A stretch of 64,000 nt of DNA from Paenibacillus ihbetae. Lineage in GTDB: Bacteria; Bacillota; Bacilli; Paenibacillales; Paenibacillaceae. The number at the start of each line of letters is the position of its first letter. The first letter of the stretch is position 1. Below the pieces are notes generated by a model. That model searched no databases and was not told where the DNA came from. It saw only the letters and a list, made by a program, of their open reading frames with translations. Of the stretch, positions 23,699 to 49,536 are shown piece by piece. The position numbers and the translations under genes are program-made. Location: contig NZ_CP016809.1 of the NCBI RefSeq assembly GCF_002741055.1, positions 5,682,501 to 5,746,500 on the forward strand, written 5' to 3'.

Positions 23699-24736
23699 AT
23701 GAAGAGAAAAATGTGGGTATCACTTGCATTGTCGGCAGTGCTCGTGACGGCAGTCGGCTGCGGGGACAAGCCGGAAGGCGGAAGTACGGAGACAGGAAGC
23801 GGCGGCGATGCCGAGAAGAAGTCTTACAGCATCGCGATCTCGCAATATGTAGAGCATCCGTCCCTTGACGCAACGAGGGAAGGAATTCTTGCGGCGCTGA
23901 AGGATGCCGGAATATCGGAAGAGGACAACACGCTGAAGCTTGACTATAACAATGCTCAGAACGATTCAACGAACAATCACACCATCGCTCAGAAGCTGAA
24001 GGATTCGAAAGCCGATTTGGTTGTGGCGATTGCTACGCCATCCGCGCAAGCCGTGGCAAACGAAGTGAAGGAGAAGCCGGTCCTGTTTGCAGCGGTTACC
24101 GACCCGCTGGATGCGAAGCTGGTCAGCGACCTGCAGAAGCCGGGCGGCAACGTTACCGGCGCTTCCGACACGAATCCGGAAGCGACAAAGCAGCTGATGA
24201 ATTTTGTCAGCACCCATTTTCCTAATGTGAAGAAGATTGGTTTGATCATCGATGAAGGGGAAGCGAATGCCGTCGTCATGGCCAAGACAGCCGAAGAGGT
24301 GCTCGCGGAGCATGGGATCGAACTGGTGAAGGCTTCTGTCACCAATACTTCGGAAGTGAAGCAGGCTGCCGAGTCTCTGGTCGGTAAGGTGGATGCATTC
24401 TATATTACGCTCGACAACCGGGTTGTAAGCGGAGTGGACACGATTATTCAAACCGCCCAACAGAATAAAATTCCGTTCTTCTCCAGTGACCGCGACACGG
24501 TGGAGAAGGGGGCTTTTGCTACCGTTGGCTTCAAGTATTATGACCATGGGTATCAGGTTGGTCAGATGGCGGTAGAGATTTTGAAGAACGGCAAGAAGCC
24601 GGCTGACATGGAAATCACGAAGCCTGACAAGCTGGATCTGATTCTCAATGTGAAGGCTGCGGCGGACTACGGCATCGAGGTTACGGACGCCATGAAGCAG
24701 GAAGTCAAAGACCCTGACAACAACATCATTGAGTAA
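23699..24736 (+). CDS. ABC transporter substrate-binding lipoprotein (COG2984 / TrpX-like)
   Basis: A 345-residue lipoprotein: signal MKRKMWVSLALSAVLVTAVG with acceptor Cys21, a Gly/Glu/Ser-rich linker, then a periplasmic-binding-protein type I fold (YSIAISQYVEHPSLDATREGI, AQKLKDSKADLVVAIATPSAQA, VTGASDTNPEATKQL). Relatives in streptococci (TrpX) bind tryptophan or tyrosine; most members are uncharacterised. It is the first gene of a three-gene importer with permease and ATPase directly downstream. The ATG at 23699 follows GAGAGGGG at 8-9 bases. Confidence 0.93.
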   Translation: MKRKMWVSLALSAVLVTAVGCGDKPEGGSTETGSGGDAEKKSYSIAISQYVEHPSLDATREGILAALKDAGISEEDNTLKLDYNNAQNDSTNNHTIAQKLKDSKADLVVAIATPSAQAVANEVKEKPVLFAAVTDPLDAKLVSDLQKPGGNVTGASDTNPEATKQLMNFVSTHFPNVKKIGLIIDEGEANAVVMAKTAEEVLAEHGIELVKASVTNTSEVKQAAESLVGKVDAFYITLDNRVVSGVDTIIQTAQQNKIPFFSSDRDTVEKGAFATVGFKYYDHGYQVGQMAVEILKNGKKPADMEITKPDKLDLILNVKAAADYGIEVTDAMKQEVKDPDNNIIE

Positions 24737-24793
24737 ATGTAAGGCGCGGAGTCTTGAGCCCGCGCCTTCCTTAATCATAAAGGAGGTCAAGAC

Positions 24794-25714
24794 ATGTTGG
24801 AATTCCTGATGAGACTGGACGGTCCGATTGAATTAGGTCTGTTGTATGCGCTGATGGCACTTGGCGTTTATATTACGTTCCGCATTTTGGATTTTCCGGA
24901 TCTTACGGTGGATGGAAGCTTTACCATGGGGGGCGCGATTGCAGCCGTACTGATTATAAACGGCACCAACCCTTGGCTTGCAACGTTGGTTGCGATTGCC
25001 GGCGGGATGGCCGCGGGGGTATGCACAGGACTCCTTCATACGAAGGGCAAGATTAACGGATTGCTGTCCGGGATTATTATGATGATTGCCCTTTATTCCA
25101 TTAACATGCGGATTATGGGCAAGCCGAACATCTCGCTCAGCCAGGAGGATAACGTATTCGGCTCTATCGATCCGATTTATGTCATGCTTGTTATTGTGAT
25201 CATCGTGAAGCTATTGCTGGATGCGTTCTTCCGCACCGATCTCGGTCTTGCCCTGCGGGCAACGGGGGACAACAAACGGATGATCCGCAGCTTCGGCGCG
25301 AACACCGATACAACCACGATTCTCGGGCTCAGCATTTCCAACGGCTTGGTTGCCTTTTCAGGCGCCGTCGTTGCGCAGCAGTCCAGCTTTGCGGATATCA
25401 GCTCAGGGATCGGGATGATCGTGATCGGTCTGGCGTCTGTCATTATCGGTGAAGCGATCCTTGGCAAGGGCTCCGTATTCCGTACGACACTTGCGGTGGT
25501 ATGCGGTTCGATTATTTATCGGATCGTGGTTGCGGCTGCCTATGAAATCCCTTGGCTTGAAGCTTCCGACCTGAAGCTGATTACCGCCGTTATCGTAATT
25601 GTCGCGCTTGTGCTGCCGACCGTGCAGCGGTCGATGAAGCAGCGATCGCAGGCGAAGAAGCGTTCGACCGAGCTGCTGACCGCTCAAGGCAAGTCGGAAG
25701 GAGGTGCCTTTTAA
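24794..25714 (+). CDS. ABC transporter permease (COG4120 / TrpY-like)
   Basis: A 306-residue inner-membrane permease of the branched-chain-amino-acid permease-like fold, with about nine hydrophobic segments. Typical features are ALMALGVYITFRILDFPDLTVDGSFTMGGA near the N-terminus and a cytoplasmic coupling region LRATGDNKRMIRSFGANTDTT. It ends in a basic tail. AAAGGAGGTCAAGAC precedes the ATG at 24794. A short GC-rich inverted segment (24743-24770) between this and the binding-protein gene may modulate relative expression. Its stop shares one base with the start of the ATPase gene. Confidence 0.92.
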   Translation: MLEFLMRLDGPIELGLLYALMALGVYITFRILDFPDLTVDGSFTMGGAIAAVLIINGTNPWLATLVAIAGGMAAGVCTGLLHTKGKINGLLSGIIMMIALYSINMRIMGKPNISLSQEDNVFGSIDPIYVMLVIVIIVKLLLDAFFRTDLGLALRATGDNKRMIRSFGANTDTTTILGLSISNGLVAFSGAVVAQQSSFADISSGIGMIVIGLASVIIGEAILGKGSVFRTTLAVVCGSIIYRIVVAAAYEIPWLEASDLKLITAVIVIVALVLPTVQRSMKQRSQAKKRSTELLTAQGKSEGGAF

Positions 25715-26508
25715 TGCTGCAGATGAATCATGTATCCAAGCTTTTTAACCCTGGAACGGTGGATGAGAAGGTTGCTCTCATGGATGTGAACCTTCATCTG
25801 AAGCCCGGCGATTTCGTTACGGTCATCGGAAGCAACGGTGCAGGCAAATCCACATTAATGAACATCATATCCGGAGTGCTGAGGCCCGATGCGGGCGAGG
25901 TCCGGATTGACGGCAACGACATCGGTCACCTGCCCGAATTCCGCCGCAGCCGCTGGATCGGCCGCGTGTTCCAGGATCCGATGGCAGGCACGGCACCGCA
26001 TATGACGATTGAAGAAAACCTGGCGATGGCATTAAAGCGGGGGAAATCCCGCGGACTTGGGATCGGGGTATCCGCAGCCAAGCGTACGGCGTTCCGTCAG
26101 CATTTGGAACGGCTCGGCATTGGCCTGGAAAATCGACTTCGCGCGAAGGTTGGCATGCTCTCGGGCGGTGAACGCCAAGCACTCAGCCTCCTGATGGCGA
26201 CATTCACGGAGCCGCAGATTCTGCTGCTTGACGAGCATACAGCGGCGCTGGACCCGGCCCGTGCGGAGCTGATCACACGCATTACCGACGAGATCGTCCG
26301 GGATATGAACCTGACGACACTCATGGTGACCCACAATATGGAGCAAGCGATCCGCCTCGGTAATCGACTCATTATGATGGATAAGGGACGAATTATTCTC
26401 GATGTGGACGAGCAGCGCAAGCAATCGCTGACCGTTGAACAGCTGCTCGGCGAGTTCGAGCAGATCAGCGGTCATAAGCTGTCGGATGACCGGCTTGTGC
26501 TGGGTTAA
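25714..26508 (+). CDS. ABC transporter ATP-binding protein (COG1101 / TrpZ-like)
   Basis: A 264-residue ATPase. Walker A is GSNGAGKST (about residues 38-46), the Q-loop VFQDPMAG, signature LSGGERQALSL, Walker B ILLLDEHTAAL with an unusual His after the catalytic Glu, and H-loop MVTHNM. It energises import by the preceding permease. Translation is coupled (TAATG: stop and start share one base). A terminator follows about 55 bases downstream, so the operon is limited to three genes. Confidence 0.94.
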   Translation: MLQMNHVSKLFNPGTVDEKVALMDVNLHLKPGDFVTVIGSNGAGKSTLMNIISGVLRPDAGEVRIDGNDIGHLPEFRRSRWIGRVFQDPMAGTAPHMTIEENLAMALKRGKSRGLGIGVSAAKRTAFRQHLERLGIGLENRLRAKVGMLSGGERQALSLLMATFTEPQILLLDEHTAALDPARAELITRITDEIVRDMNLTTLMVTHNMEQAIRLGNRLIMMDKGRIILDVDEQRKQSLTVEQLLGEFEQISGHKLSDDRLVLG

Positions 26509-26698: not shown

Positions 26699-26727
26699 TT
26701 GACCGGTGTAATATTAATCAATATGAT
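26699..26727 (+). promoter_or_regulatory. Sigma-A promoter of receptor gene 1, with adjacent GTCA/TGAC inverted repeat
   Basis: TTGACC (26699-26704) and TATGAT (26722-26727) have an optimal 17-base spacer, about 55 bases before the TTG start. Just upstream GTCA (26675-26678) and TGAC (26684-26687) form a small palindrome at about -60, a possible binding site for the receptor or another regulator. The 26509-26698 gap holds only this, the importer terminator and AT-rich sequence. Confidence 0.65.
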
Positions 26728-26782: not shown

Positions 26783-28174
26783 TTGGAGAAATTAACCACG
26801 ATTCGCGAACAGTTAGAAGAGCATTTGCGCAAGCATGGGATGACGATAAACCGGTTTGCAGATTTATCGGGGGTGAACAGCGGCACGCTCAGCAACATCC
26901 TGAACGGGAACCGACCAATTTCGATGCAGCAGCTGGACAGGATCACGTCCGGGATGGGACTTCCTGATGGTTATTTCTACGATTTGTACATAGATGAATG
27001 TATTTTTCATGCCACGCCCGATTGGCGGCGCCTGGGCCCCTTCCTTCTTCGCTGTGCCGAGCTGGACAAGCTGGATTGTCTGGACCGTGCGATCCGGATG
27101 ACGATGGATAATGTCGCGTATGCCCCGATGCTGTTCGACATGGCGGAGACCTTGTTTCAAGAAGGGAAGAATGAGGCAGCCGCCATTTTATATCAATGCG
27201 TTGCCGAGAGCGAGAAGTTCCAGCATTCCGAACGGCTGGCTCTTTGCCAGTACCGGCTTTTTATGCTCAGCTTGTCGGAGGACCAGGAGGCGAATCTGCA
27301 AGCGGCCGTGTCTTTTGAGCCGTATATTGATCGGTTGGATGAGGGTTATCAGTTGGATGCTTATGTGAAGTTAATAAATATAAATCTATCTTTAAATCGT
27401 TTGAGCAAAGTTAAGATCTTGGCCGAAAAAATGTTGCAGCTAGCAACGGTTCAGTATAAATATAGCAGATCCTCAAAGATAACAAATAAACAAGGAAAAA
27501 AGAAGCCGATTATCTCCTACATTCTGTACGCATACCTTTCCATTGAAAATTTCTATAGCGAGGAAAGGGACTACGAGAAAGCATTGCACTTCGTATCTCT
27601 ATACGATGATCCGGATTGGGTAGTTGACCCGAATGAAGAGGAACGTGTCATTCTGGTACAGTTTAAGGAATGGGCGGTAGCTAATCGTTACTTATATCAA
27701 CTATTGGCGGGTCATGTTGATGTATTATCTGAATACGTAGAATATATTGCCGAAAGAGAGAGCGAGATATTTACAGCAGTTTGCAATATTATGATTGTTG
27801 CGAACCTATATAAATTAAATGTTGATCATATTCTGGAACGATTTAAGGATTACTTAGTATATAAGGAACAAACGTATTCTGTTGCTAAAGTTAGTAATCA
27901 AGTGACATTAAGTCGTTTTACAAGATTATTATCCGAATTGGGCCTATATTATTTAAACTTGAAAAGATTTGAGAAAGGTATGGAATATATTTTAGAGAGT
28001 CTGAAATATTGTATTGCAATAAATAGCAGTAATGGTATGCTGAGATGTATGGGAATATTTGAGCAATTTCGTCAAAATGCAACAGACGAAGCACAGCAGC
28101 AATATAAAAAATTGGTAAGTGAGGTGCAGAAAATAAATGATAAAAAAATTGGTTTGTCTATTAGCTATTTGTAG
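26783..28174 (+). CDS. HTH + TPR-like peptide receptor/regulator, RRNPP (AimR/AloR-like), copy 1
   Basis: A 463-residue protein. Residues about 5-60 are an XRE-type helix-turn-helix (MTINRFADLSGVNSGTLSNI, then RPISMQQLDRI). The rest is a chain of alpha-helical, TPR-like repeats rich in Leu/Tyr pairs (ESEKFQHSERLALCQYRLF, EERDYEKALHFVSLYDDPDW, YYLNLKRFEKGMEYILESL). This is the architecture of RRNPP quorum-sensing receptors (AimR, PlcR, NprR, and AloR of Paenibacillus). TTG start at 26783, GGAGGTGGTG upstream. Base composition falls from about 62% GC (27001-27060, hand count) to 22% (27361-27420), dividing the gene near codon 192. The 3' end overlaps a propeptide gene. The last residues (INDKKIGLSISYL) differ from those of the paralogues. 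DNA targets unknown. Confidence 0.85.
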   Translation: MEKLTTIREQLEEHLRKHGMTINRFADLSGVNSGTLSNILNGNRPISMQQLDRITSGMGLPDGYFYDLYIDECIFHATPDWRRLGPFLLRCAELDKLDCLDRAIRMTMDNVAYAPMLFDMAETLFQEGKNEAAAILYQCVAESEKFQHSERLALCQYRLFMLSLSEDQEANLQAAVSFEPYIDRLDEGYQLDAYVKLININLSLNRLSKVKILAEKMLQLATVQYKYSRSSKITNKQGKKKPIISYILYAYLSIENFYSEERDYEKALHFVSLYDDPDWVVDPNEEERVILVQFKEWAVANRYLYQLLAGHVDVLSEYVEYIAERESEIFTAVCNIMIVANLYKLNVDHILERFKDYLVYKEQTYSVAKVSNQVTLSRFTRLLSELGLYYLNLKRFEKGMEYILESLKYCIAINSSNGMLRCMGIFEQFRQNATDEAQQQYKKLVSEVQKINDKKIGLSISYL

Positions 28175-28277
28175 CGCCTTGGTTATTACTGTAACCCCTT
28201 CTAGTACATCGTATGCTGATAACAGTGAGATAATGACTCTTCAATCAGGAGGACATGGAAGTGGGGCAGAGTTTTAA
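28137..28277 (+). CDS. Secreted signalling propeptide, 46 residues (AloP/AimP/Phr-like)
   Basis: An open frame of 46 codons starts inside receptor 1 (38-base overlap, different frame) and ends 103 bases beyond it. The product begins MIKKLVCLLAICSALVITV, a textbook Sec signal peptide with two Lys and a hydrophobic core. SYA at 25-27 is a signal peptidase I site. It leaves a 19-residue exported part, DNSEIMTLQSGGHGSGAEF, whose C-terminal GGHGSGAEF is the likely source of the mature peptide. Short size, the overlap with the receptor 3' end, and export followed by processing are features of Phr, AimP and AloP pheromones. GAGGTG lies 11 bases before the ATG. A strong terminator follows six bases after the stop. 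The exact mature form is inferred. Confidence 0.8.
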   Translation: MIKKLVCLLAICSALVITVTPSSTSYADNSEIMTLQSGGHGSGAEF

Positions 28278-28282
28278 GAATT

Positions 28283-28318
28283 AAAAAAAACACTTTCGAT
28301 ATTGAAAGTGTTTTTTTT
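28283..28318 (+). terminator. Strong terminator closing the receptor 1 / propeptide unit
   Basis: A perfect 15-bp inverted repeat made of eight A plus CACTTTC (28283-28297) and GAAAGTG plus eight T (28304-28318), loop GATATT. It separates receptor 1 and its peptide from receptor 2. Confidence 0.95.
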
Positions 28319-28443
28319 ATCGAGTTACTCAGTGAAGTGATCCATTGGTACATAGTTACTTATGAAGTTCATAAAATGGAGTAAAACTTTTTAATTCCAT
28401 CTTTTTACTTTTATTTGGTTAGGCTCTGGGGGGATGTTGTTGC

Positions 28444-29823
28444 TTGAAAACGACAGCCACGATTCGCAGTGAAATCGATAAATTTCTACATCATCATCGT
28501 TTAACTATTAATCAATTTGCAAGGCTTTCAGGAGTGAATAGCGGAACACTCAGCAGTATTCTTAATGGTCATCGCCCTATGTCTATGCAGCAGTTGGATC
28601 GGATTACGCATTGTATGGGGTTGGAAGACGGGCATTTCTACGACATGTATATCGACGAGTTTATATTTCACTTAACACCAGATTGGCGCCGGTTGGGCCC
28701 GCTTCTGCAACGCTGCGCTCAGTTAGATAAGCTTGATTCCCTAGATAAAGCCGCCAGAATAATACTGGATAACGTCTCCTATGCACCCATGTTATTTGAG
28801 TTAGCAGAGTCGTTTTATTATTCAGGAAGAAACGAAGCGTCAATGCTGCTATATGAATGTGTTGCAGAGAGTGAAAAATCACAGCATTCTGAACGCTTGG
28901 CTCTGTGTCAATACCGAATATTCACACTCAAATTAAGTGATGACCAAGAGAAAAACTTACAGGCAGCAGTACAATTTGAACCCTATATAGATAAATTGGA
29001 CGAACGCTATCAACTTGATGCATACAAGAATCTATTAAACACCTATTCGGCATTGCATCGCTGGGAAGATGCTGAGCGTTTAAGCAGGAGAATGAGACAA
29101 GCAGCAAAAATGCTTTACACAGAGAACAGGAATGCATATCAGGTGCTAGATTATCCCAACAAGCCGGTGATTTTTTATATTTTATATTCTTATCTTATGG
29201 AATCCCATACTTACAAAGAGCGAGGGAAATTTGATAAAGCATTGGAATTGATATCGTATTATCAAGATCCAGATTGGGTGGATAATCCCAGTCAAGAAGA
29301 ACTTGTTATAACGGATCAGTTTTCCGAGTGGGCCAAAGCCAATAGGTATTTGTATCGATTGCTGAGTGGACAGCCTGACAGTTTGGACATGTACGTAGAG
29401 TTTATAAGCTCAAATGAAGACGAGATTTTTCATGCTCTGACTCACATCATGGTGGCTGCCAATCGCTATCATCTTCAAGTGGATCATATTTTGGAGCGAT
29501 ACAAGGATTATATCGCTTATAAGCCTCGAAAAAGCAGGATCGGCACCATTGATGAACAAGTAAATATTAATAACTATACCCGCCTCTTAGCTGAGCTAGG
29601 CATTTATTATTTGAATGCTAAACGATACGAAGAGGGCTTAGCTTACATCGTGGATAGTCTGGAGTATTCAATTCGGATTCGCAGCGATAAAGGCATGCTG
29701 AGATGTATGGGGCTGTTCGAGCAATTCCGCCCCTTTGCTTCGCCCGAAATCCAGCAACGCTATCAGAACCTGATTAGCGAAGTTCAAAAATTATCGGTTT
29801 ATGCATGGTTGCCCATGATATAG
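28444..29823 (+). CDS. HTH + TPR-like peptide receptor/regulator, RRNPP (AimR/AloR-like), copy 2
   Basis: A 459-residue paralogue of copy 1. The HTH (LTINQFARLSGVNSGTLSSI, then RPMSMQQLDRI) and the helical repeats (WRRLGPLLQRCAQLDKLDSL, AESEKSQHSERLALCQYRIF, YYLNAKRYEEGLAYIVDSLEY) are conserved. The start is TTG at 28444 with GGGGGG about nine bases upstream. The C-terminus ends VQKLSVYAWLPMI. No signal-peptide-bearing small frame was found overlapping or following the gene in any + frame, so this is a receptor without an adjacent peptide. It may respond to the copy 1 peptide or to one encoded elsewhere. No clear terminator follows. Confidence 0.83.
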   Translation: MKTTATIRSEIDKFLHHHRLTINQFARLSGVNSGTLSSILNGHRPMSMQQLDRITHCMGLEDGHFYDMYIDEFIFHLTPDWRRLGPLLQRCAQLDKLDSLDKAARIILDNVSYAPMLFELAESFYYSGRNEASMLLYECVAESEKSQHSERLALCQYRIFTLKLSDDQEKNLQAAVQFEPYIDKLDERYQLDAYKNLLNTYSALHRWEDAERLSRRMRQAAKMLYTENRNAYQVLDYPNKPVIFYILYSYLMESHTYKERGKFDKALELISYYQDPDWVDNPSQEELVITDQFSEWAKANRYLYRLLSGQPDSLDMYVEFISSNEDEIFHALTHIMVAANRYHLQVDHILERYKDYIAYKPRKSRIGTIDEQVNINNYTRLLAELGIYYLNAKRYEEGLAYIVDSLEYSIRIRSDKGMLRCMGLFEQFRPFASPEIQQRYQNLISEVQKLSVYAWLPMI

Positions 29824-29900
29824 TCTACCAATTCGAAAAGCTATAGGTGGGCAATAGGAATTTAAATTTATTTCAATCAATTCCATGTATAACCTTACTA

Positions 29901-29929
29901 TTGGCCTGGGGTATATTAAATAATAGAAT
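29901..29929 (+). promoter_or_regulatory. Promoter of receptor gene 3
   Basis: TTGGCC (29901-29906) and TAGAAT (29924-29929) are 17 bases apart, 43 bases before the GTG start. The sequence TTACTATTGGC around the -35 recurs upstream of copy 4 near 31874-31886, showing shared ancestry of the two promoter regions. Confidence 0.55.
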
Positions 29930-29972
29930 GTAATTAATGTATATTTTGGGTGGAGCTTGGGGGTGTTGTTGC

Positions 29973-31352
29973 GTGAAATCGACAGCCACGATTCGCGGAG
30001 AGATTGAACGTTTTATTGATGAGCACGGAATGACGATCAACCAGTTTGCCAATGCTACAGGAATAAACAGCGGAACATTAAGCAGCATTATAAATGGTCG
30101 TCGTCCACTATCCATGAAGCAGTTAGACCGGATTACTTCAGTCATGGGATTGGAAGAGGGGCATTTCTATGAACTGTACATCGATGAATGCATTTTTCAC
30201 TCTACGCCGGACTGGCGTCGCTTAGGCCCGTTTCTGTACCGCTGCGCGGAGCTTGATAAATTAGACTGTCTTGATACGGCTGTCCGGATGACGTTGGATA
30301 ACACTACCTATTTGCCAATGCTATATGATCTAGCGGAAACGTTTGTGCAAGAAGCGAAATATAAAGCAGCAATATTGCTCTATGAATGCGTAGCCGAAAG
30401 CGAGAAGTATCAGCATTCCGAACGCTTAGCCTTATGTCAATATAGACTATTTAAACATCGAATTGAGAACAATCAAGAATCAAATGGGCGAGCTGTCGTA
30501 CTCTTTGAACCTTACATAGAACGTTTAAATGAAGCGGATCAGTTGGATGCATATGTACATGTTATCAATGTAAGTCTTCCTCTCGATCGATGGGATAGTA
30601 TACGAAATCTCGCGGAGAGGATGGGGAAAAAGGCCCGTATTCAGTATGATAACGGCAACTATTTGGATACGGATTCGGGTAAACCCAATCAGCCAATCAT
30701 CTTTTATGTACTCTACTATTATTTGGTCTTAGAAAATTATTATGCTCATTTCGAAGATTATGGACGCGCTCTAGAATATGTATCGCTATATGACTTCCCA
30801 GACTGGATCGTTAATCCTTCCGAAGCAGAACGCAAAATTTTAAATCAATTCCACGAGTGGGCCATTGCTAATCGTTATTTGTACAGGCTATTAAGCGGTG
30901 ACCGGGAAGTGCTGCCTGAATACGTTGAGTATATCTCTACAAGAGAGGACGAAATCTTCACAGCGATATGCAATATTGTATTGGCTGCCAACCGTCATAA
31001 ATTAAATATCGATCATGTGATAGAGCGATTTAAGGATTACCTCGTTTATAAATCGCAACGGAACGTTATTGCTCCTGTTAATGAGCAGGTGACCCTTAAC
31101 AACTACACGCGCTTATTGGCTGAGTTAGGCATCTATTACCTGAATGCCAAGCAGTACGATCGTGGGTTAGCCTACATCGTGGACAGTTTCGAGTATGCGA
31201 TTCGGATTCGAAGCGATAAGGGCATGCTAAGATGCATGGGGCTATTTGAGCAGTTCCGTTCATTTGCATCGTCCGAGATCCAGGAGCGCTACCAGGAGTT
31301 AATCACCGAAGTACAAAAGTTATCGGTTTATGCCTGGATGCCGGTCGTATAG
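29973..31352 (+). CDS. HTH + TPR-like peptide receptor/regulator, RRNPP (AimR/AloR-like), copy 3
   Basis: A 459-residue paralogue. HTH: MTINQFANATGINSGTLSSI then RPLSMKQLDRI. Helical repeats as in the other copies, ending YYLNAKQYDRGLAYIVDSFEY, GMLRCMGLFEQFRSF and the tail VQKLSVYAWMPVV. The start is GTG at 29973, in the same position as the TTG of the paralogues; the frame is open 12 codons further upstream but that part is the leader. No propeptide frame follows. A terminator-like hairpin is at 31390-31417, and a gene for a small membrane protein follows. The 3' 240 bases are very similar to those of copy 4 at DNA level. Confidence 0.83.
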   Translation: MKSTATIRGEIERFIDEHGMTINQFANATGINSGTLSSIINGRRPLSMKQLDRITSVMGLEEGHFYELYIDECIFHSTPDWRRLGPFLYRCAELDKLDCLDTAVRMTLDNTTYLPMLYDLAETFVQEAKYKAAILLYECVAESEKYQHSERLALCQYRLFKHRIENNQESNGRAVVLFEPYIERLNEADQLDAYVHVINVSLPLDRWDSIRNLAERMGKKARIQYDNGNYLDTDSGKPNQPIIFYVLYYYLVLENYYAHFEDYGRALEYVSLYDFPDWIVNPSEAERKILNQFHEWAIANRYLYRLLSGDREVLPEYVEYISTREDEIFTAICNIVLAANRHKLNIDHVIERFKDYLVYKSQRNVIAPVNEQVTLNNYTRLLAELGIYYLNAKQYDRGLAYIVDSFEYAIRIRSDKGMLRCMGLFEQFRSFASSEIQERYQELITEVQKLSVYAWMPVV

Positions 31353-31389
31353 TTGGTATGAAGATTTTATATAGAGCATAGACAGAAGG

Positions 31390-31418
31390 CGCAATTCACC
31401 AATTGTGCTGGATTTTTT
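31390..31418 (+). terminator. Terminator after receptor gene 3
   Basis: Stem GCGCAATT (31390-31397) with AATTGTGC (31402-31409; one G-T pair), loop CACC, then TGGATTTTTTT. Confidence 0.75.
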
Positions 31419-31447
31419 TATAGATATGGGATAAAGGGGGGATGATT

Positions 31448-31831
31448 ATGAGGGGCAAAAAGCAGATGCTAACTCTAGCAATTCTCTTTGTTGCAGCTTA
31501 CGTTATATTTGGAGTATGGATTGCTCATGATGCGAAAATTATTCTGGAAAAGGCAATGAGCGGTGACCTTGATTATTCGCATTATATGAACCAAACGGCC
31601 TTCCAAACGATAAATCCAATCGAACGTGGATTGACGGCAAGTCATTTTGAATTCGATAAAGAATTACATGACGTGGGGGTAATTTTACCGCTGCATTTCT
31701 TTTTCATTTCGAAAGTCTTTGTAACTCAGCAATATGAAAATGCTCATTTTGGTTTCAAAGAGCCCGTCCGTTTGGATCTAAAGCTAACTTCGGGGGAATG
31801 GTATGCAGCGAATGTCCACATACAACCTTAA
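31448..31831 (+). CDS. Small membrane-anchored protein, unknown function
   Basis: A 127-residue protein inside the receptor array. Residues 1-9 are basic (MRGKKQM), 8-28 form one hydrophobic helix (LTLAILFVAAYVIFGVW), and about 100 hydrophilic residues follow, ending LTSGEWYAANVHIQP. It looks like an N-anchored extracytoplasmic protein; there is no signal peptidase site after the helix. ATG 31448 has AAAGGGGG seven bases upstream, while ATG 31442 is directly against it. The product is too long and of the wrong shape for a pheromone precursor. No family is recognised. Its position between receptors 3 and 4 suggests that it may be a target or accessory of the system, but this is inference. Confidence 0.65.
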   Translation: MRGKKQMLTLAILFVAAYVIFGVWIAHDAKIILEKAMSGDLDYSHYMNQTAFQTINPIERGLTASHFEFDKELHDVGVILPLHFFFISKVFVTQQYENAHFGFKEPVRLDLKLTSGEWYAANVHIQP

Positions 31832-31949
31832 ATCTTGACGGTACGAAAATCTGCCCAATGAGGCCTCACCTATGTATTACTATTGGCTCCGAATATAAAA
31901 GCAGCGCGTCGGATAACAATGCAATGGTCAGTTTCTGGGGTGTTATGGA

Positions 31950-33293
31950 TTGATATCGACGGCCACGATTCGTGAGCAAATTACACGATATATCGATGAA
32001 CGTGGGATGACGATCAACCAGTTCGCAAGAATATCGGGGATAAACAACGGAACCCTCAGCAACATCCTTAATGGTCGCCGCCCTATATCCATTAAACAAT
32101 TGGATCAAATGACTTTAGCGATGGGATGCAGTGAAGGGCATTTCTATGAAATGTATATCCATGAATATCTATTTCCTTCGAAGCCGGATTGGCGTCGGCT
32201 TGGTCCATTTCTGCACCGCTGTGCCGAATTGAACAAACTCGATTGTTTGGATCTGGCAGCCCGCATGACATTGGACAATACGAGTTATCTTCCTGTGCTT
32301 TTTGAAACAGCGGAAACGTTGTTCGGTGAGGGGAGGTATGAAGCTGCAAAAATGCTCTATGAGTGTGTAGCCGAGAGTGAGAAGTCCCAACATTCTGAAC
32401 GATTGGCTTTTTGTCAATATCGTTTATTTTTAATCAAATTAAGTGCTGATCAAGAGAAAAATTTACAAGCCGCTGTGCATTTTGAATCATTTATCGACAA
32501 ATTAGATGAATGCTATCAGCTCGATGCATATACGAAAATAATTAACAGTTATTTATCCTTGCACCGATGGGAAGAAATTGAACTTTTAAGCAGGAAGATG
32601 AGGCTACTTGCAAAAGTGCTTTATAATTTAAAAAGAAAGTTATATGAAGGGCAGGTCTACCCAAAGAAGCCCATCAGCTTTTATATCTTATATGCGTATC
32701 TTATGGAATCCCATTCGCATAAAGAGCGAGGAAATTATGGTAAAGCATCGGATATAGTATCGTTATATGACAATCCCAGCTGGTTGGTTAACCCTTGCGA
32801 AGAAGAACTCATTATAATTGATCAATTTTCTGAGTGGGCTAAAGCCAATAGATATATGCTCAAACTAATGAGTGGTGAGACTGACATTCTAGATACCTAC
32901 GTAAAATATATATCCGAGCAAAAGGATGAAATATATCATGCTTTAAGTTACATCATGCTGGCTGCGAATCGGCACGATTTTAAAGTGGATCATATCTTGG
33001 AGCGTTTCAAGGAGTTTATTGTATATCAGCCTCAAAAAAATAAACTAGGTAAAATCAGTGAACAAGTTAATCTAAACCGCTACACCCGCCTATTAGCCGA
33101 GCTAGGCATCTATTACTTAAATGCCGAGCAGTACGAGCGCGGGTTAGCCTACATCGTGGACAGTTTTGAATATTCGATTCGGATTCGGAGCGATAAGGGC
33201 ATGCTAAGATGCATGGGGCTATTCGAGCAATTCCGTTCATATGCTTCAGCAGAGATCCAGAAGCGTTATCAGGAGCTAATCCGTGAAGTTTAG
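31950..33293 (+). CDS. HTH + TPR-like peptide receptor/regulator, copy 4, C-terminally truncated by TAG
   Basis: A 447-residue paralogue. HTH: MTINQFARISGINNGTLSNI, then RPISIKQLDQM. The helical repeats are kept through YYLNAEQYERGLAYIVDSFEY and EIQKRYQELIREV. Where copies 2 and 3 continue QKLSVYAWxPxx, this gene has TAG (33291-33293). The following bases still encode KLSVYAWMPVV and then TAA in the same frame, so a CAA/CAG to TAG change removed exactly the last 12 residues (459 expected). The TTG start at 31950 has GGGGTG upstream. It may be a working variant, a decaying gene, or depend on readthrough. No propeptide gene is adjacent. Confidence 0.8.
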   Translation: MISTATIREQITRYIDERGMTINQFARISGINNGTLSNILNGRRPISIKQLDQMTLAMGCSEGHFYEMYIHEYLFPSKPDWRRLGPFLHRCAELNKLDCLDLAARMTLDNTSYLPVLFETAETLFGEGRYEAAKMLYECVAESEKSQHSERLAFCQYRLFLIKLSADQEKNLQAAVHFESFIDKLDECYQLDAYTKIINSYLSLHRWEEIELLSRKMRLLAKVLYNLKRKLYEGQVYPKKPISFYILYAYLMESHSHKERGNYGKASDIVSLYDNPSWLVNPCEEELIIIDQFSEWAKANRYMLKLMSGETDILDTYVKYISEQKDEIYHALSYIMLAANRHDFKVDHILERFKEFIVYQPQKNKLGKISEQVNLNRYTRLLAELGIYYLNAEQYERGLAYIVDSFEYSIRIRSDKGMLRCMGLFEQFRSYASAEIQKRYQELIREV

Positions 33294-33493
33294 AAATTAT
33301 CGGTTTATGCCTGGATGCCGGTCGTCTAACCCGTGTAAAAATGACTTGGAACCATGCTCTTCATTCGTTGTGACAGACGGGCTGCCCATCCGATGGATGC
33401 AGAAGTTTGTGATGATCGGTAGCCGAAAGGAAGGGTTTGTGATAAAATCGGATAAGTTTATTTTTACATATCGTTGGAGTGAGGAGTCTTATC

Positions 33494-49462: not shown

Positions 49463-49536
49463 GGCGGTCGTGGCGAAGGGGTTAACGCACCGGATTGTGG
49501 CTCCGGCATTCGTGGGTTCAAGTCCCATCGATCGCC
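49463..49536 (+). tRNA. trnH: tRNA-His (GTG anticodon)
   Basis: A full cloverleaf can be drawn. The extra G-1 (49463) pairs with C73 (49536), which is specific to tRNA-His; the acceptor is GCGGTCG (49464-49470) with CGATCGC (49529-49535). The D stem is GCG/CGC, the anticodon stem CCGGA/TCCGG with loop TTGTGGC (anticodon GTG at 49497-49499), and the T arm GTGGG/CCCAT with loop TTCAAGT. CCA is not encoded (CCTTTA follows). Single tRNA, not in a cluster. Confidence 0.96.

Follow-up and report, generated by a model that had tools for sequence, protein, structure and literature searches.

In pherotype systems such as comQXP, agr and PlcR-PapR, the sensor part of the receptor and the signal gene co-vary between strains, and in Streptococcus salivarius the ComR paralogues ScuR and SarF, which have no peptide of their own, are activated by the ComR pheromone. 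The locus analyzed here is a tandem array of four paralogous open reading frames (ORFs) of the AloR family, R1-R4, on the + strand of a 64,000-nucleotide stretch of the Paenibacillus ihbetae genome (contig NZ_CP016809.1, positions 5,682,501 to 5,746,500; hereafter the window, with coordinates counted from its first letter). Like ComR, ScuR and SarF, it unites in one genome a pheromone receptor, R1 with its signal gene aloP, and peptide-less paralogues, the orphans R2-R4; unlike them, the orphans retain their sensor halves between close orthologues even where the pheromone differs. Unlike in the pherotype systems, the fixed part is the first 199 residues of R1, and the break lies within one cytoplasmic receptor gene. 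Our overall reading, to which we assign a probability of roughly 0.74, is that of an Alo array in which R1 would bear a swappable cassette of sensor half and aloP, R2 and R3 would serve as independent peptide-less regulators, and R4 would be a mosaic copy. The family itself is known; what is new is the modular exchange within R1 and its contrast with the closest orphans.

The described Alo systems are those of P. polymyxa, for which the accessible part of the original report (Voichek et al. 2020; PMC7425212) is our source throughout. Their receptors combine a helix-turn-helix (HTH) with a tetratricopeptide repeat (TPR)-like domain and are followed by a propeptide of 32-50 amino acids with a signal sequence. 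The mature peptide of AloP13 is SHGRGG; in alo13, the promoter next to the receptor gene is activated by AloR and silenced by the peptide, and addition of AloP13 lowers transcription of aloR14, which lies beside aloR13 and has no intact aloP. Peptide-less receptors are represented by aloR18 and, with a degenerate peptide gene, by aloR5 and aloR14, and a Spo0E-like gene, found directly downstream in six systems, is not obligatory (PMC7425212). Two further papers name AloR as a family, with no mention of allele exchange in their accessible parts (PMC10075063, PMC9765709), and no account of allele exchange in Alo systems was found among the papers listed by the literature searches, which were thin on subscription papers and preprints.

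How does the P. ihbetae array compare? It shares with the P. polymyxa systems the receptor architecture, the downstream propeptide and the occurrence of aloR genes without a usable aloP. It differs in that the sole pair and three orphans stand in one array, that none of the three Spo0E-like genes of the genome lies in the window (unlike alo13), and that there is an apparently exchangeable sensor/aloP cassette and a shared orphan tail, neither of which was found in the accessible part of PMC7425212. Rap-Phr of Bacillus likewise comprises paralogous TPR receptors, some of them peptide-less, and orphan Raps are core genes (PMC5199041, accessible part). However, Rap has a three-helix N-terminal domain where R1-R4 have the HTH, and recombination inside the receptor, the main signal here, is not evident among the Raps, for whose divergence the same text reports no evidence of recombination of homologues. 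The features of the array are as follows.

26783..28174, + strand: R1, 463 codons, TTG start; AloR receptor paired with its own signal gene aloP
28137..28277, + strand: aloP, 46-codon propeptide with a signal-type N-terminus and the C-terminus LQSGGHGSGAEF
28282..28319, + strand: intrinsic terminator, hairpin and U run 3' of aloP
27380..28405, + strand: putative specificity cassette, running from about codon 200 of R1 (to its codon 463) through aloP and the terminator to the leader just before R2; apparently exchanged relative to P. lactis
28444..29823, + strand: R2, 459 codons, TTG start; orphan AloR-type receptor with the tail QKLSVYAWLPMI
29973..31352, + strand: R3, 459 codons, GTG start; orphan AloR-type receptor with the tail QKLSVYAWMPVV
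31950..33293, + strand: R4, 447 codons, TTG start; orphan AloR-type receptor, mosaic, with a TAG stop 5' of the conserved tail
33294..33329, + strand: remnant in frame past the R4 stop, corresponding on direct reading of the sequence to the conserved orphan tail

Probable exchange of the R1 sensor half and aloP

Between R1 and its counterpart in P. lactis (L005; L and P numbers denote relatives' loci and listed proteins), codons 1-195 agree at 100% of amino acids with a synonymous divergence (dS) of 0.05-0.10, the flanking genes of the window lie at or above this level in the same comparison (dS 0.09-0.24), and the first differing residue is 200. Past codon 199, amino acid identity falls to 45-65% (about 55%), and up to codon 455 dS is 1.5 in one block and undefined, being saturated, in the three others; over the last 8 compared codons, which overlap aloP, it is 0.50. 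A model with one change point puts the break at codon 199-200 with a likelihood ratio (LR) of 326.5, inside a predicted helix spanning residues 187-203. In BLAST against the P. lactis sequence, the diverged half of R1 can be aligned up to 28174 at about 62% DNA identity, no match is found in 28175-28404, and high similarity returns at 28405, 39 bases before R2. Because high similarity is lacking from codon 200 to 28404, the replaced stretch would comprise aloP with its terminator as well as the sensor half of R1.

The same pattern recurs among relatives. A search with the receptors returned 1220 homologues at E <= 0.001; among the 120 listed, named sources are nearly all Paenibacillus. Nine of these 120 have the N part of R1 (up to residue 199) at 98-100%; one (P0033) is R1 itself, and the C parts (residues 200-390) of the other eight are 51-76% identical to that of R1. 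Swap-like values for N and C parts are seen in the array pairs lautus-G070 (94% and 64%), G065-EZ-K15 (93% and 59%) and glucanolyticus-lautus (94% and 56%), while lautus-G032 (96% and 88%) and glucanolyticus-solani (86% and 79%) appear to share alleles. With ten arrays compared, the LR reaches at least 70 in 14 of 45 pairs, with breaks at codons 143-199. In the wider Alo lineages, 17 of 249 receptor pairs with N-part identity of at least 0.88 have a C part of 0.70 or less, and the reverse, a C part exceeding the N part by more than 0.05, occurs in none of 2701 pairs.

Trees and signal peptides point the same way. The C-part data reject both clades formed by the N part (approximately unbiased test, p-AU 0.0055 and 0.00064; 22 rows, including P0067, which is C-terminally disrupted), and in the C tree the G070 cassette clusters with P0056 and P0058, both of which carry a lactis-type N part (94/86). 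Across the ten arrays, AloP similarity tracks the C part, at a partial r of 0.66 for the whole propeptide (permutation p 0.0008) and of 0.64 for its last 14 residues (0 of 5000 permutations), but not the N part, for which the corresponding values are -0.04 and -0.15. Base composition changes as well, from a GC content of 0.47-0.56 in the N part of R1 to 0.28-0.39 in the cassette.

Several observations weigh against this account. The breaks are spread over codons 143-199, so that the position of the border varies; the 94/86 support for the grouping of G070 with P0056 and P0058 falls just below the mark; the permutation test for AloP draws on 10 arrays; and R2-R4 are likewise AT-rich (GC 0.32-0.47), which weakens composition as a mark of the cassette. 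Nevertheless, given the jump in dS, the change points, the replaced non-coding DNA, the C-part trees and the tracking of the C part by AloP, an exchange of the R1 sensor half by recombination is well supported. By these comparisons the N and C parts of R1 have different histories, and the sensor half appears to have been exchanged together with the signal gene as one cassette. Such an exchange would be expected to change signal specificity and with it the communication group. This split history of R1 had escaped the first-pass annotation of the window, as had a 129-codon ORF between R3 and R4 (see below).

The orphan receptors

R2, R3 and, in the nine other arrays, the receptors downstream of the pair share the C-terminal sequence QKLSVYAWxPxV or one very similar to it. 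In a tree from an alignment stripped of this tail, the orphans form one clade of 27 rows (100/99), 26 of which bear the tail, the other being the truncated R4; since the clade forms without the tail, the latter can be read as an inherited mark of the orphans. Their C parts are compatible with the lineage clades (lactis clade 93/95; lautus p-AU 0.38), as judged with L117 and the L007 fragment left out and with the lineages of P rows assigned from the tail-free tree.

Do the orphans read the pheromone of their neighbour? An initial comparison of orphan orthologues displayed 12 pairs, all more than 75% alike, and was hence circular; orthologues were therefore chosen again by the N part alone. This gave 50 reciprocal-best pairs covering 27 of 29 receptors, the fragmentary second receptors of L007 and L117 being dropped. 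Where the N parts are at least 88% identical, the C part falls to 70% or below in 0 of 7 orphan pairs vs 13 of 16 pairs of peptide-paired receptors; at an N-part identity of at least 80%, the counts are 3 of 15 and 20 of 24. Arrays whose R1 cassette was swapped contribute 19 orphan pairs, 9 of which have sensor halves 74-93% alike; among those kept despite the swap are window-lactis (91% and 82%), lautus-G070 (92% and 92%) and G070-EZ-K15 (93%). Since close orphans keep the sensor half while the pheromone changes, they probably do not read that pheromone.

The opposite view, which we consider unlikely though worth serious attention, is that R2 and R3 (and R4) eavesdrop, binding the peptide of the R1-aloP pair and so spreading one signal to several promoters. 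It would fit the location of the orphans beside no signal gene other than aloP and the residues invariant across R1-R4, which include N199, N301 and N341, candidate ligand contacts. It would also have a parallel in RapB and RapJ, which answer PhrC, although only at a 10-fold higher dose (PMC5199041, accessible part). The remaining 10 of the 19 orphan pairs from swapped arrays are also as eavesdropping would have them, being only 56-66% alike in the sensor half; their N parts are 70-85% alike, which makes orthology less sure, and three of them combine N parts of 83-85% with C parts of 57-59%. A receptor of the pheromone should co-change with it, however, and the close orphan orthologues keep their sensor halves across different pheromones.

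These ten diverged pairs count against independence of the orphans, and they are not alone in complicating the picture drawn above. Choosing orthologues by the N part alone weakened the contrast between orphan and paired receptors for distant pairs; the third receptor of L117 bears the tail and falls outside the orphan clade; the comparison of R3 with P. lactis is patchy, with dS of 0.2-2.2 and a change point at LR 24.7 (N part 91%, C part 83%); one orphan pair has a change point of LR 36.1 at codon 413; and R4 is a mosaic that groups with P0037 by its N part and with R2 by its C part, each at 100/99. Independence from the pheromone is accordingly less clear for distant orphan pairs.

It is quite improbable that the orphans are decaying, functionless duplicates. 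R4 does have the look of a truncated local addition, not seen in P. lactis: its stop codon, TAG at 33291-33293, stands where R2 and R3 have a Gln codon, and the next 11 codons correspond to their tail. The second (orphan) receptors of L007 and L117 are in fragments. However, R2 and R3 are intact and, judged by their substitution rates, under purifying selection. Relative to P. lactis, R2 (93% amino acid identity) shows a non-synonymous divergence (dN) of 0.032 at dS 0.233, and R3 a dN of 0.071 at dS 0.667, that is, dN/dS near 0.14 and 0.11, respectively. In addition, tail and array position are conserved across species.

Could the tail itself be a built-in ligand that fills the receptor's own groove, so that no peptide is needed? 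The tail is present in 35 of the 120 listed proteins, an ORF of the signal type described below follows none of the 11 tail receptors scored, and 8 of the last 12 tail columns are invariant in 17 non-redundant rows, a partly circular count as a loose tail pattern had picked the rows. The predicted monomer of R3 speaks against a docked tail, its last seven residues, 453-459, having a confidence score (pLDDT) below 50, and we regard a tethered ligand as very improbable. Least credible of all is that the R1 sensor half diverged without recombination, under strong positive selection acting quickly on the peptide groove. Fast evolution is common in the sensor regions of signal receptors and the C-part dN against P. 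lactis is 0.24-0.57, but dS leaps at the very same point, non-coding DNA 3' of aloP was replaced too, and the C-part trees reject the N-part clades and place the G070 cassette with P0056 and P0058.

The signal gene and the receptors as members of the Alo family

The ATG of aloP lies 38 nt upstream of the end of the R1 stop codon, and the final residues of R1 are encoded within the overlap with the aloP signal sequence. A downstream ORF with a hydrophobic N-terminus and a near-terminal HG motif (HG-type ORF) accompanies 74 of 102 receptors scored and occurs in 1 of 99 control stretches; the -38 offset recurs in 60 of the 74. The 102 receptors come from the window and relatives' loci, exclusive of L001-L004, of L084 and later loci, and of rows shorter than 400 amino acids or starting past model position 6. 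The C-terminus LQSGGHGSGAEF resembles the AloP-type ends of relatives and the mature AloP13 peptide (PMC7425212). The terminator folds at -17 kcal/mol (z -6.27; 0 of 200 shuffles equal it); its stem is A-T rich, and folding picked it up where a scan for terminator-like sites missed it. No HG-type ORF lies at -80 to +220 nt downstream of R2, R3 or R4, the sole short frame after R2 being a 28-codon GTG frame without the HG motif. The overlapping 46-codon frame, the strong terminator and the arrangement of one receptor-peptide pair with three peptide-less receptors, all proposed in the first-pass annotation, are thereby borne out; as it also suspected, the exact pair was not met in the literature searched.

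Variations on this layout occur elsewhere. In L008, L009/L118, L087/L115 and L091/L116, aloP begins 166-193 nt past the receptor stop, without overlap; L009 also retains, at -35, a short signal-like frame that may be a remnant, and the propeptide of L115 (G070), 166 nt after the receptor stop (as seen in L087), contains two SHGAGT-like units, a doubled pheromone. L075, L076, L079, L027 and L036 are other tandem AloR groups in which some members have no HG-type signal ORF; these members bear different tails, such as SYD[SF]WYWG in L075 and L076.

A Cro/C1-type HTH scores above the Pfam cut-off in all four receptors (R1, HTH_3 25.3 with a cut-off of 23; R2, HTH_26 23.9 with a cut-off of 22; R3 and R4, HTH_3 29.7 and 33.1), and R2-R4 are 57-60% identical to R1. 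The AlphaFold models of R1 and R3 (mean pLDDT 89.9 and 90.0) are nearly all helical, with the HTH followed by a TPR-like superhelix. The XRE-type HTH and the TPR-like helical body expected from the first reading are both borne out, the latter in the models of R1 and R3, and the four paralogues do stand in tandem. The common length of about 459 codons did not hold for R4, which has 447 codons because the TAG at 33291-33293 cuts off the tail codons. Start codons of R1-R4 were picked by homology between the copies; R1 and R3 also have longer in-frame starts.

Relatives at 45-47% identity over nearly the full length occur in P. terrae NRRL B-30644 (L073, L081), a strain in which 40 AloR were counted (PMC7425212), and at 50% in P. 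polymyxa ISL-58; the link to AloR is made through these relatives and not through the AloR13 sequence. R1 combines an HTH, a TPR-like domain, AloR relatedness and a downstream hydrophobic ORF within the range of 32-50 codons, the last of which R2-R4 lack. As sequence relatives, architecture, overlapping propeptide and fold all fit, the locus is assigned to Alo, an established type of quorum sensing in Paenibacillus, within the RRNPP receptors. Of the two kinships first suggested, AloR-AloP stands and AimR does not: the AimR model NF038310 reaches 20.5 bits in R2 and 18.5 bits in R3, confined to the HTH region, vs a cut-off of 70, and R1 and R4 do not appear among its matches. In the NCBIfam search of the receptors nothing scored above cut-off. 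Unlike the arbitrium system AimR-AimP, the receptors have no phage relative that was found closer than about 25%. Membership among the Raps was likewise rejected, since all four receptors have the Cro/C1-type HTH in place of the Rap three-helix N-terminal domain.

Structural comparison was less discriminating. A search of solved structures by sequence produced six weak matches, all to the N-terminal part and with a best E of 0.021, and Foldseek returned poor query-normalised TM-scores of 0.14-0.35 among the 50 matches listed, which LGN and other TPR proteins lead and in which PlcR (3u3w) ranks 25 and Rap (4gyo) 46; a second Foldseek look put separase and a generic TPR protein on top. An origin on a mobile element was considered and rejected: the 34 matching plasmid records are all below 60% identity, and 2 Brevibacillus phages match at about 25%. 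One of the latter, SecTim467 (KT151957.1), encodes at 67468-68790 a distant AloR-like protein with 24.9% identity and 96% coverage. No further AloR gene was found in the genome outside the four-gene array.

Neighbouring genes and promoter-like sites

The surroundings of the array contain the following features.

23699-26508, upstream of the array: ABC transporter (substrate-binding protein, permease, ATPase)
26699..26727, + strand: promoter-like site of R1, TTGACC-17-TATGAT, with the palindrome ATATTAATCAATAT over spacer and -10
29901..29929, + strand: promoter-like site of R3, TTGGCC-17-TAGAAT, the same in P. lactis
31442..31831, + strand: 129-codon ORF between R3 and R4, with an N-terminal hydrophobic segment

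A gene for a transporter of the major facilitator superfamily (MFS) type (33479 in the window) follows 10 of 10 arrays compared, and because the same gene follows them all, the combination of one pair with peptide-less receptors is, on this comparative evidence, old. The first reading of the locus as expanding and diversifying is upheld in part: R4 resembles a local addition to this old layout, and diversification is sharpest in the R1 sensor half and aloP and not in the orphans. The upstream transporter ATPase (25714), about 0.3 kb from the array in the window, was found before 7 of the 10 arrays; the gap to the array is about 6.6 kb in L006 and 7.2 kb in L008, L114 and L115 have no ATPase close by in the flank, and the flank of L118 is too short to show one. 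The transporter itself is presumably of the TrpX type. No T-box or other leader precedes it in an Rfam search of the window at gathering scores, where the sole match was a tRNA gene at 49464-49536. Relatives of the 129-codon ORF occur in 23 of 100 genus genomes, its own included; it was not found in the examined stretches of the nine other arrays, belongs to no Pfam or NCBIfam family above cut-off, and no relation to the receptors was detected.

Regional scans were at chance overall (15 promoter-like sites vs 20.0 expected, and 7 terminator-like sites vs 5.1), but the R1 site tops its scan, matching 10 of 12 positions in a tie with one other site. It recurs with exactly 17 nt between its boxes in 8 of 10 arrays; in a ninth, L008, the spacer is longer by one base, and L117 deviates. 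The R3 site is akin to the TTGACC-17-TAGCAT type found upstream of the first orphan of seven other arrays. The palindrome ATATTAATCAATAT at 26711-26724 is exact in the array clade and missing from the other AloR upstream stretches scanned; it was therefore rejected as a family-wide operator and is at most a local operator candidate. The leader motif TAATATTTGGNTT was dismissed as a regulon operator because it is not specific, the genome containing 25 matches with up to one mismatch vs 38 for the reversed control.

A model of the array and its meaning

By analogy with the described systems, R1 would be transcribed together with aloP, and the AloP propeptide would leave the cell, be cut down to a short peptide from its C-terminal region around the HG motif and be taken up again, as for Alo13. 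The peptide would then bind the TPR groove of R1 and alter its action on nearby promoters. On the alo13 precedent, R1 likely controls promoters of the array, perhaps including those of the orphans, and AloP would relieve this control. Residues 1 to about 199 of R1, that is, the HTH and the first helices, would form a module nearly frozen between close species, whereas residues 200 to the end, together with aloP, would be a cassette swapped as a unit by homologous recombination, which may allow a lineage to switch its communication group in one step while retaining the DNA-contacting half. R2 and R3 could be long-standing peptide-less regulators of a second tier, perhaps under AloR control, or could alternatively respond to another, less variable ligand, and R4 would be a mosaic copy that lost its tail to a stop codon. 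A more far-reaching version, possible though tentative, sees a two-tier device that couples a frozen DNA-binding half and cross-species dialect cassettes to dialect-independent receptors, which would read an invariant, possibly shared ligand with their tail and less variable sensor half, thus operating private and common channels side by side.

What would it mean if the model of a swappable R1 cassette beside independent orphans were true? An intracellular peptide receptor could change its signal in a single recombination step, its DNA-binding half being left untouched. The natural allele pairs, identical in residues 1-199 and differing in the sensor half, lend themselves to direct tests of specificity. 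The array would also delimit a set of orphan receptors that can be tested for independence from the pheromone encoded beside them.

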